From Natronospira proteinivora (GTDB lineage: Bacteria; Pseudomonadota; Gammaproteobacteria; Natronospirales; Natronospiraceae), in contig NZ_JALJYF010000001.1 of NCBI RefSeq assembly GCF_024170465.1, positions 930,001 to 994,000 on the forward strand: a DNA stretch of 64,000 nucleotides. Direction: 5' to 3'. The notes under the pieces are model-generated. The model was not told the DNA's origin. It saw only the letters and a program-made list of their open reading frames with translations, and did no database searches. Both the position numbers and the translations under genes were made by a program. This document shows positions 18,972-23,689 of this stretch, in pieces. How positions within the stretch are numbered: the stretch's first letter is position 1; each line of letters begins with the position of its first letter.

Positions 18972-19047
18972 TCCCCGGTAGCTCAGTTGGTAGAGCGGGT
19001 GACTGTTAATCACTAGGTCGGCGGTTCGAGCCCGTCCCGGGGAGCCA
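18972..19047 (+). tRNA. tRNA-Asn (GTT)
   Basis: A 76-base cloverleaf with acceptor TCCCCGG/CCGGGGA, anticodon stem GGTGA/TCACT around loop CTGTTAA (anticodon GTT), T-loop TTCGAGC and encoded CCA. Confidence 0.97.
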
Positions 19048-20314: not shown

Positions 20315-23300
20315 TCAATCCATACTGGAATGTGGACAGCCTGACTCTCTCTGGTCAATGACCAGAAATTGATTCACAGGCACATCACTACAAATCTGCT
20401 CCTCACCATCTGGCCACATTACCCGAATCTCCGCCATTTCCGCTTCACCCATACCAAAATGCATATTTGGAAGGTTTTGTCCGTTAAAGCTGCTATGGGC
20501 CATGCTTTCCCGCATTTGACGCTGAAACCCATGACCATTGCCCACATCAGCACTGACTTCCACCTTGGCACCCAAGGCATGGGTATTCGGCGGCTGGCCA
20601 ACCAGACGAACATTCAGGAAGCGGGCCCCAGCTCCATGACCAACCTGATTTTCAAAGAATTGAATGCCACTGGAATTATCCACCAGCACGATATCCACAT
20701 CGCCATCTCGGTCATAATCCAAACAAGCAACGCCTGTGCCTTGCGAGGCGACATCCAGATTCCACTCAATCGCTTTCTCTTCAAAGGTTCCATCACCGTT
20801 ATTCATGAACAGCACAGGCGGATTATCCATGAAGCGACCACCGGTAATGTATTCATACCATTCCGACGCATACACACTGGCTGGTAAACGACCAAAACCG
20901 TTCACATGGAAAATATCCAGGAAACCGTTGTTATTGAAATCCGCCGCACAAGCCCCCCATCCCCAACCACCTTTTCTGACGCCGGACTCCTCCGTCACAT
21001 CCTCAAACTCTAGACCTCCATTCTGACTCACATTCCGATATAGACGATTTCCACTTGTCCCCCAATTCCCGATTGGATCTTCAACCCGATCAAAGATCGA
21101 TGTCACAAACCAATCCAACTTCCCATTATTCTGGAAATCACCAACAACAGCCCCCATTCCATTCTCATCAGTAATCACGTCGCCATCTGTAACATTTACG
21201 AATGTTGTTTCAGATTCTGGACTATTCATCAGAACTGAGCTCGTTCCGAAGTCCGATGCAATCAGCAAGTCTGGTATAGCATTCCCGGTTAAGTCCGAGA
21301 AAATGGGTGCGAAATTAAAATTCTGATCCAAATAGGCTGAGGAAGTCCCCCCAGCCTCATCAGAGGGAAGCAACTGGTCACCGCCCTCATTGACCCAGAG
21401 AGCCGGCGCCAGACCATCAGCACCACCAGACCAGTGGGCCATAAAAAATCCCGGGTAGCCTGTTTGCTCGAAATCTGAAAATGCCAAGCCCCATGTACTT
21501 CTCGACATGGGGAGACGAGCGATTTCCTGATAATTTTCATGCTCGTTCATACCGAGCACCGGGACACCTTCATCAGGACTTATGTTGCTCACCAACAGCT
21601 CTTGATAGAAATCCCCATTCAAGTCCATCAAGGAAACGTTAGTAAAGAAGGAAAAATCTCGACGATCCATACCTGAAAGCTTCTCGGACCGAGAAAATCC
21701 ATTCTGACCACCCAAGTTCTCATAGAAAAGCAGCCCTGAATCCTCACCACCGGTAAAAATCAGGTCAGGCCAACAGTCTGTATTGATATAAGCAGCAGAA
21801 ATACCACCGGAAAACATCCTCATTTCAATGCCGGACTGACCATCGGCTACCCAGCCTTCAGCGCTAAATCCATGTTGGTCATCCAAGTTCAAATCTTCAC
21901 GGTGCACAAATCGTTCTTCATTGTGATTGAGCGCTGAAGACATACCATCACTACAGCTAACAACATCCGGAAAAGTATCCCTTGCAGGTCTTGATGGATG
22001 GTCCAAGGCAATAAAATCCGGGTAGGACGGATCGGTGCTGTCATCAGCCCATAGATTGCCGCCATGGGTTTCGCCTTTTACCAGCAATTGACCATCCGGA
22101 TCCTCATCGAGGTCTGGGGTCCAGGGCGAAAGGCAGGCGGCATCTTCGACACAAGGGTCCGTCAAGGTCTCCAGGAAAGACACCAAATCATCCACCTGCT
22201 CATTTGTCGGTGGTGATTCCGGGAGCTTCTCAAGCGCCTCTTGGAACGTCTCATGCTCAATTACTTCTTCAGTTAGACGCCTTGCATTGGGGTAGAGAGT
22301 AAGCACCCTTCCCCCGTGAAACTGAGGAAGCTCCAGCAGAAACCGGTCGAGCTGATTGTGCCAGTATTCCGGATCGCTATGCCAAAGAACCAGGTCCTCC
22401 AAAGTAGCGAAGCTACCTGAGTGACCATAGGGCGCCCTGACCTCAATATTCAACAAGGAGGGGACACGAAAGCGAAAGTGGTCAGATGGGTCTTGGGTGA
22501 CCCCCCACCGCCCCCTATCTACACCACCCTGGCGCTGGCCACGACCAATCTGCGGGAAACCGACATTAAAAAAGGATTCATTGGTGAATCGATCACCTGA
22601 ATGGCAAGCATAGCAAGCCATCCCTCCTTGATCTGAGCCAGCCAGGAATAGCCACGCCCCTCTTAATTCTTCTTCAGAAAGGACAACATCGTCTTCCTCT
22701 TCAAACCTCAGAAACTCACTCCAGGGATTATCCACAAATAACAACGATGCCTGGTAAGCCGCCAATGCCCTTTGAATGTTACCCAGATTTATTGGATCAT
22801 CTGTTTCGGGGAAAGCTGCCTCAAAACGTGAGTGCCAAGAAAGTTCTGAACTCGGATCTGAATCCCGAAGACGCTCAACCAACATGGTCCGGTAATCTTC
22901 CGGGACCATTTCCGGATGGGAAAAGGCCCTCATCTCTCGGTTATTAACCAATGGAAACAGGGCCTGAACCTCCAACAGGTTTTCTCCATCCCCCATATGT
23001 ACCAGATTCCCACTTTCAGGGGTTTGGAATTGCTGCCCTTCACCACCAGGCTTTTCTTCTTCATCAATCACGAAAAGTCGCCCATCGTGAAACAAGGAAC
23101 GATTGTAGAGGGATACGTTAAAGATGGTTTGGCTATTGCGGGGAACATTGGGCCCTGAATCTTCACGTGGATCCAAGTCTCTTTCAGGCAACAAGCTTCT
23201 ACCCTTACCAAGATGATGGGGAACCTTAGCTCCTGTGCCTATGGATAGGGATAGTCCATCACCCATTGCCAATTCAGGATGATGGCAGGAGGCACAGGCA

Positions 23301-23629
23301 ACGTCCTTCATTCCACTCAAGCTGGTACTGAAGAAAAGGAGTTGCCCCAGCTTTACCAGGGAATCATTATCAGGTGTTACCGCACCGCTCCCGGGAGCGG
23401 CATCCCCGGTCAAACCACGCTCATTTGACAGTTGCCGAACAAGATCCGCCAGTTCTTGAAGTGAGTCATCGTTATCATCATCGACAGATTCGCGATCACT
23501 ATCACGCACTGGCTCAACTGCGCTATCAATATCATCTTGGCTGCAGCCAATAAGAAAGCCGGACAAGAAAAAACAAATCAGTGCAAGCGGCCGTACGGCG
23601 GACCCGCCAAGAAATATCCAATAATGCAT
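20315..23629 (-). CDS. Lipoprotein fusing a di-heme cytochrome c peroxidase (MauG-like) to FG-GAP/ASPIC-UnbV (CRTAC-like) domains
   Basis: A 1104-residue predicted lipoprotein (lipobox LIGC, lipidated C29). Residues about 90-500 resemble di-heme peroxidases: heme motif CASCH at 112-116, a SLFHDGR motif, a second heme motif CYACH at 339-343, and PYGHSGSFATLEDLV after it. From about 520 to 1010 there are repeated FG-GAP/VCBS-like units (for example DLNGDFYQELLV, DYDRDGDVDIVLVD), and residues about 1025-1100 form an ASPIC/UnbV domain. Periplasmic redox activity with a calcium-binding propeller is likely; the substrate is unknown. GC content is near 45% in sampled stretches, below its neighbours, which suggests acquisition. 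The ATG at 23629 gives the best signal peptide. Confidence 0.88.
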   Translation of the reverse strand: MHYWIFLGGSAVRPLALICFFLSGFLIGCSQDDIDSAVEPVRDSDRESVDDDNDDSLQELADLVRQLSNERGLTGDAAPGSGAVTPDNDSLVKLGQLLFFSTSLSGMKDVACASCHHPELAMGDGLSLSIGTGAKVPHHLGKGRSLLPERDLDPREDSGPNVPRNSQTIFNVSLYNRSLFHDGRLFVIDEEEKPGGEGQQFQTPESGNLVHMGDGENLLEVQALFPLVNNREMRAFSHPEMVPEDYRTMLVERLRDSDPSSELSWHSRFEAAFPETDDPINLGNIQRALAAYQASLLFVDNPWSEFLRFEEEDDVVLSEEELRGAWLFLAGSDQGGMACYACHSGDRFTNESFFNVGFPQIGRGQRQGGVDRGRWGVTQDPSDHFRFRVPSLLNIEVRAPYGHSGSFATLEDLVLWHSDPEYWHNQLDRFLLELPQFHGGRVLTLYPNARRLTEEVIEHETFQEALEKLPESPPTNEQVDDLVSFLETLTDPCVEDAACLSPWTPDLDEDPDGQLLVKGETHGGNLWADDSTDPSYPDFIALDHPSRPARDTFPDVVSCSDGMSSALNHNEERFVHREDLNLDDQHGFSAEGWVADGQSGIEMRMFSGGISAAYINTDCWPDLIFTGGEDSGLLFYENLGGQNGFSRSEKLSGMDRRDFSFFTNVSLMDLNGDFYQELLVSNISPDEGVPVLGMNEHENYQEIARLPMSRSTWGLAFSDFEQTGYPGFFMAHWSGGADGLAPALWVNEGGDQLLPSDEAGGTSSAYLDQNFNFAPIFSDLTGNAIPDLLIASDFGTSSVLMNSPESETTFVNVTDGDVITDENGMGAVVGDFQNNGKLDWFVTSIFDRVEDPIGNWGTSGNRLYRNVSQNGGLEFEDVTEESGVRKGGWGWGACAADFNNNGFLDIFHVNGFGRLPASVYASEWYEYITGGRFMDNPPVLFMNNGDGTFEEKAIEWNLDVASQGTGVACLDYDRDGDVDIVLVDNSSGIQFFENQVGHGAGARFLNVRLVGQPPNTHALGAKVEVSADVGNGHGFQRQMRESMAHSSFNGQNLPNMHFGMGEAEMAEIRVMWPDGEEQICSDVPVNQFLVIDQRESGCPHSSMD

Positions 23630-23689
23630 CCCCTCCCCCTCAACCAAGCTAACTCTCGTAGCCTAGATTTCTATTCCTTACATTGACTA

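Follow-up and report, generated by a model that had tools for sequence, protein, structure and literature searches.

Architecture of the fusion gene

The region analyzed here, referred to as the window, is a stretch of 64,000 nucleotides from the genome of the soda-lake bacterium Natronospira proteinivora. On its minus strand (20315..23629) it carries a single open frame of 1104 amino acids from the ATG, with zero internal stops, which joins a di-heme peroxidase to a complete CRTAC1-like FG-GAP propeller with its UnbV_ASPIC domain. Upstream of the ATG, the open frame extends to a TTG at position 23647, a G-rich, Shine-Dalgarno-like stretch lies immediately 5′ of the ATG, and a promoter scan of the gene found none. 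As stated in the initial annotation, which had been made from the sequence alone, the gene is solitary and located between chrA and galU. Pfam confirms both neighbors, chrA as coding for a chromate transporter (PF02417) and galU for a nucleotidyl transferase (PF00483), and the fusion gene is convergent with chrA, with 9 bp separating the stop codons.

The encoded protein, all features of which are given with their minus strand coordinates, begins with a signal peptide containing the lipobox LIGC (Cys29; 23543..23629) that had already been recognized. Serine in position +2 of a lipoprotein directs sorting to the outer membrane, and the serine present at this position of the predicted lipobox would fit such a destination. 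The di-heme CCP_MauG half follows (approximately residues 87–525, 22055..23371); it was delimited using Pfam, NCBIfam and the ends of stand-alone homologues, and it carries a conserved C-terminal motif with Cys493 and Cys499. The Pfam match to CCP_MauG spans residues 91–310 (1.7e-28; 100.5 bits vs. a curated cut-off of 25.6) and, together with the two CxxCH motifs, places this half in the bacterial cytochrome c peroxidase (bCCP)/MauG superfamily (PF03150). The N-terminal heme 1 site, CASCH (residues 112–116, 23282..23296), is peroxidatic by homology and invariant in 32 of 32 homologues, and the heme 2 site is CYACH (residues 339–343, 22601..22615), as established by homologue alignment. A linker of about 70 residues (approximately residues 526–599, 21833..22054) that is poorly conserved among fusions leads to the FG-GAP beta-propeller (approximately residues 600–1000, 20630..21832; FG-GAP_3, 1.9e-24, four stretches) and to the UnbV_ASPIC domain (residues 1018–1089, 20363..20578; 3e-16). 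The heme motifs lie exactly at the positions first given for this frame, and the Pfam matches confirm the FG-GAP region and ASPIC/UnbV domain described with them.

The order of an FG-GAP propeller followed by UnbV_ASPIC is that of CRTAC1, and the structure predicted for residues 594–1104 (predicted template modeling score 0.85) has the CRTAC1 fold. It matches murine CRTAC1 (9etn) with VIA Z 39.1 over 448 residues and a root mean square deviation of 2.6 Å, whereas other propellers reach Z values of about 31 and below. The same relationship is evident from the sequence (2.9e-11 with phmmer and 5.2e-39 with hmmsearch). The fusions and the stand-alone proteins closest to them have cysteines at both C894 and C969, whereas distant CRTAC1-like proteins have a cysteine at neither position; as judged from this pattern, the two residues are likely to form a disulfide.

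Recurrence, origin and acquisition

The search for the same architecture in other genomes, proposed in the initial annotation, was successful in 11 further genomes or records. Including the window, the total is 12, made up of a second Natronospira genome (G005), an Alteromonas macleodii plasmid and nine genomes of the family f142; 11 fusions entered the alignment. Natronospira sp. CSSed10_283R1 (G005) contains a full-length copy that is 65% identical to the window protein. On the A. macleodii plasmid pTE101a, found by tblastn of plasmids, the fusion is 35.5% identical over 94% of the query and is annotated merely as an "FG-GAP-like repeat-containing protein". The nine remaining copies were retrieved by profile searches among 297 sampled genomes of f142, which we take to be Alteromonadaceae because the copy and operon of genome G653 are nearest to those of A. 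macleodii. Pfam confirmed an identical architecture in examples from every fusion subclade. A class-wide scan of 369 genomes returned the fusion in its own genome only, and it is therefore rare outside Natronospira and the f142/Alteromonas groups. A contig scan yielded zero matches with a single fusion sequence as the query, and the second Natronospira genome plus distant stand-alone CRTAC1-like proteins with an alignment of two fusions.

The independent full-length copies rule out an assembly or frameshift join of the two halves, which had been named as a finding that would undermine the gene, and the copies in G005, pTE101a and f142 likewise exclude that the fusion is unique to the window. 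A phage origin was also rejected, as neither phages nor viral contigs gave a full-length match. The original statement that the parts normally occur in separate proteins is correct in that they usually do, according to the class-wide scan; even so, the fusion is no isolated case but a new, recurrent and apparently unnamed combination of known families.

Stand-alone homologues of the heme half stop at approximately residues 516–527 of the query, where the heme half of the window protein stops, and stand-alone propeller proteins carry export signals at their own N-termini where these were read. The fusion therefore corresponds to two whole genes joined head to tail. In another gammaproteobacterium (G094), the halves are indeed encoded by separate adjacent genes on the same strand, 4 bp apart; a second linked pair was not found in the order of G094. 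The two genes are convergent neighbors in G068 and lie on different contigs in G226 and G003. In a phylogenetic tree of the heme halves, the 11 fusions all group in a single clade (bootstrap 99, Shimodaira–Hasegawa-like approximate likelihood ratio test 95), whereas the fusions are interspersed with three stand-alone genes in the propeller tree. Monophyly of the fusions on the propeller side is rejected when all stand-alone genes are included (approximately unbiased test, p 0.0015) but not when these three long-branched genes and some distant rows are left out (p 0.285). The simplest reading is a single fusion event after which a few lineages lost the heme half, two fusion events being also conceivable, and we are probably dealing with a recurring fusion of single or few origins. 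As a separate observation, many genes for stand-alone relatives of the heme half directly adjoin a histidine kinase gene and one for an OmpR-type response regulator (L160–L169, L035 and L038; confirmed by Pfam for L161).

With a GC content of 49.6% and a GC content at third codon positions (GC3) of 47.2%, the window gene has the lowest values of all window ORFs of at least 200 amino acids. The next-lowest values are 55.5% and 58.6%, and GC3 of the other ORFs ranges from about 59 to 78%. The low GC content noted at the outset is therefore real, although the figure of around 45% given for it is not. The gene is absent from the congener G004, where the galU–chrA interval is filled by other genes. 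In G005, it resides at another place, and the galU–chrA interval contains a gene for a Mutator-family transposase. The fusions of the window and G005 are 65% identical, compared to 76–95% for seven flanking core proteins. Low GC content, absence from G004, the different place in G005, the lower identity and the differing contents of the galU–chrA interval are in line with mobility of the gene and with a chromosomal site that varies. Normal codon usage and presence in all close relatives had been named as findings against the acquisition first suspected; GC3 is odd in the window and G004 lacks the gene, and the copy on an Alteromonas plasmid points in the same direction as these two observations. 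What does argue against acquisition is the host-like composition of the G005 copy (GC 59.8%, GC3 66.5%), the arrival of which may therefore be older or separate. We consider horizontal gain of the gene in Natronospira likely and well supported, albeit not proven. In G004, a gene for a phage-type integrase (L061:10262-11692) lies close to chrA, and the region comprising a tRNA-Asn gene (window 18972–19047), chrA and galU varies among the three congeners; this region is likely to be a hot spot of integration.

Heme chemistry, gene contexts and possible function

Both CxxCH motifs, Gln222, Glu232-Met233, Arg388, Pro390, His403 and His417 are invariant across the 11 aligned fusions. Glu232 (22934..22936) resides within the motif QAxxPxxxxxEM with the same spacing as in the solved bCCP 1nml, is also found in 30 of 32 homologues and is, by homology, the acid-base catalyst of the peroxidatic heme. 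Such retention of catalytic residues, together with bCCPs as the nearest solved structures (1nml, 1.4e-24), could be explained by a periplasmic peroxidase that scavenges H2O2 and bears the FG-GAP/UnbV half as a passive domain for stability or localization. This is rather improbable, as the propeller is conserved at least as well as the heme half (70% vs. 63% identity between the two Natronospira copies), both halves have been retained over deep divergence, and the gene contexts in relatives, described below, are catabolic uptake loci and not oxidative-stress loci.

The distal ligand of heme 2 was assigned on a column anchored on the P. aeruginosa enzyme (PaCCP, 1eb7). Met275 of PaCCP, the known axial ligand of the high-potential heme, whose partner His201 numbers correctly in the 1eb7 chain, falls on the column of His417 (22379..22381) in a profile alignment. 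This column is occupied by His in 24, Tyr in 4 and Met in 2 of 32 homologues, and the assignment is supported because these are the three residues known in that role. The superfamily suggested initially (MauG/CcpA type) is correct, but the predicted ligand is a histidine and neither the Tyr of MauG nor the Met of canonical bCCPs. The interheme Trp of both groups is not conserved either: the window protein has His181 in this position (23087..23089; FWDGR to FHDGR). Among the fusion subclades, this column holds His in Natronospira, Tyr in the copies linked to pyrroloquinoline quinone (PQQ) enzymes and Trp in the SusCD-linked copies, while the axial ligands are constant.

In principle, the heme half could act like MauG or MbnH and, via a high-valent bis-Fe state, oxidize Trp or Tyr side chains either in a partner protein or in the propeller to which it is fused. 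Its best partial NCBIfam matches are to such families, its second PDB match is the "Di-heme enzyme" 6e1c, which we take to be MbnH, and the propeller half contains many invariant Trp residues. However, all three family matches stay far below the cut-offs (TIGR03791, MauG, 76 vs. 444 bits; TIGR04039, MbnH, 132 vs. 363 bits; TIGR03981, MauG-like, 164 vs. 340 bits), and no partner substrate protein was seen adjoining the fusion in all contexts. Furthermore, the exchange of the ligand Tyr for His in MauG Y294H and BthA Y463H abolishes the bis-Fe(IV) feature, and BthA Y463H retains H2O2 turnover (PMC6405878). Taken together with the alignment of His417, these variants favor peroxidase or oxidase chemistry over protein modification of the MauG type, to which we assign little probability.

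Outside Natronospira, the fusion occurs in marine bacteria beside genes for the uptake of sugars and alcohols, and its genetic environment falls into two types. In the first (pTE101a, G653, G871, G914 and G933), a divergently transcribed gene for a sigma-54 regulator is followed by genes for a PQQ-dependent alcohol dehydrogenase, a Rieske protein bearing a signal of the Tat-like kind, a small protein and the fusion; beyond it lie genes for a flavin mononucleotide-dependent alpha-hydroxy-acid dehydrogenase (four of the five loci) and a TonB receptor. A gene for an aldehyde dehydrogenase is located nearby. The protein encoded immediately upstream of the fusion in these operons is always an exported protein of 153 amino acids without a Pfam match (L090:14427-14888; homologues in L100 and L132–L134). 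Conservation of this operon in five loci and the predicted bis-His relay heme are in line with an electron-transfer subunit, in which the heme half, instead of being a peroxidase, would be the cytochrome acceptor for a periplasmic dehydrogenase, here the alcohol dehydrogenase, and the propeller a docking platform. Such a function is unlikely, though worth keeping in mind: Glu232 and Gln222 are invariant and would be needless in a pure relay, no dehydrogenase was seen in the loci of the second type, and the Natronospira genome contains no PQQ-dependent alcohol dehydrogenase above the cut-off.

The second type, read in G931, G927 and G959, consists of genes for a SusC-like TonB receptor, SusD and the fusion, together with a hydrolase of the fructan-active family GH32 and, in G931, a sugar transporter; G892 and G943 carry near-identical fusions. 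Immediately downstream of the fusion, these loci encode a lipoprotein of about 656–669 amino acids (L137:6019-7989, without a Pfam match, and L139:6059-8068). Stand-alone propeller homologues in f142 occur in a third setting, a conserved cluster for a TonB receptor, a tryptophan halogenase, the CRTAC1-like protein and a vanadium-chloroperoxidase-like protein (DUF6851/VCPO_2nd), found in L140–L150 (e.g., L143:4241-12701). This cluster suggests a halogenation-linked uptake system. All three settings combine a CRTAC1-like protein with TonB-dependent uptake and two of them also with oxidative enzymes, and we therefore propose that the propeller serves for recruitment, linking a redox enzyme with an uptake complex or with the cargo of that complex.

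The reading we tentatively prefer, at somewhat less than an even chance, is that of an exported, envelope-anchored di-heme oxidoreductase that uses H2O2 and whose propeller binds a substrate or a TonB-dependent uptake complex. The protein would be exported and probably anchored in the outer membrane; the host encodes the proteins for heme c assembly. Heme 1 would be an open peroxidatic heme served by Glu232, and heme 2 a bis-His (His343/His417) electron-relay heme. Either a periplasmic donor or a bound organic substrate would supply the electrons with which H2O2 is used. The propeller/UnbV half could place the heme half beside the uptake complex or its substrate, the partners being SusC/SusD in the fructan loci and the TonB receptor with PQQ alcohol dehydrogenase and Rieske protein in the alcohol locus. 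The gene of Natronospira, which was probably acquired, would work without adjoining partner genes. The surface redox enzyme with a large propeller-held substrate that had been envisaged at the beginning gains plausibility from the SusC/SusD/GH32 and TonB receptor contexts in relatives. A more far-reaching version, in which a whole family of envelope-exposed heme peroxidases is built into TonB-dependent uptake, with the propeller capturing either a glycan or other organic substrate or else the SusD/TonB complex, and presenting what it has captured to the fused di-heme center for oxidation before or during import, appears unlikely at present.

Several points weigh against our preferred interpretation. 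The model of the heme half is poor (predicted local distance difference test mostly <50, shallow alignment), and the bis-His coordination of heme 2 is a prediction from alignment. Neither a TonB receptor nor SusC/D or a PQQ dehydrogenase is encoded next to the Natronospira copies, and with no PQQ-dependent alcohol dehydrogenase above the cut-off in the whole genome, the argument from the context of relatives is not directly transferable. In addition, the fusions of pTE101a, G653 and G931/G892 lack a lipobox at the predicted start, i.e., anchoring is not universal.

Comparison with known systems

The fusion shares two CxxCH motifs, the catalytic Glu and the motifs QAxxPxxxxxEM and FRxPSLxN with bCCPs (PF03150), but differs from them by His417 in place of Met275, His181 in place of the interheme Trp, the C-terminal CRTAC1 half and the lipoprotein signal. 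It belongs to the same superfamily as MauG, MbnH and BthA and resembles them in partial model matches and in matching 6e1c and 3l4m; unlike these enzymes, it lacks the Tyr ligand, remains below the three family cut-offs and has no adjoining mau genes. It represents a natural lineage of the CCP/MauG superfamily with a predicted His ligand and a varying interheme residue (His, Tyr or Trp).

The C-terminal half is like CRTAC1 and the bacterial CRTAC1-family/UnbV_ASPIC proteins, with the difference that CRTAC1 has no heme domain and that the bacterial relatives found are mostly stand-alone. To our knowledge, these proteins, which are widespread in bacteria and retained as far as mammals, have no established function, and none of the papers found assigns one to the bacterial representatives. 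The recurrent covalent fusion and its adjacent-gene form are evidence of the "Rosetta stone" kind for a joint action of the propeller and exported redox chemistry. The contexts of the fusion are a first clue to the function of bacterial CRTAC1-like proteins. The two operon types point to concrete, testable substrates, namely fructans and alcohols. Should heme peroxidases indeed be built into TonB-dependent uptake, the CRTAC1/UnbV fold would thereby be linked to an enzymatic function.

In the literature on UnbV/CRTAC1 in connection with di-heme peroxidases, we found only a paper on anammox bacteria, most subscription papers lying outside the search. The gamma subunit of hydrazine synthase is a CCP-like di-heme protein with a bis-His second heme that is fused to a seven-bladed propeller in Scalindua, and related beta-gamma genes adjoin CRTAC1-family genes in other bacteria (PMC12758564). 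The gamma subunit structure 5c2v matches the heme-half profile (1.5e-10), but the window protein scores only 15.6 bits against the hydrazine_gamma cut-off of 625. In contrast to the beta-gamma fusion, its domain order is reversed, with the heme half N-terminal, and its propeller is of the FG-GAP/UnbV type. Hydrazine synthase beta-gamma is the closest precedent for the design of the fusion, which represents a second route, besides that of the anammox enzyme, for joining a di-heme CCP module to a beta-propeller.
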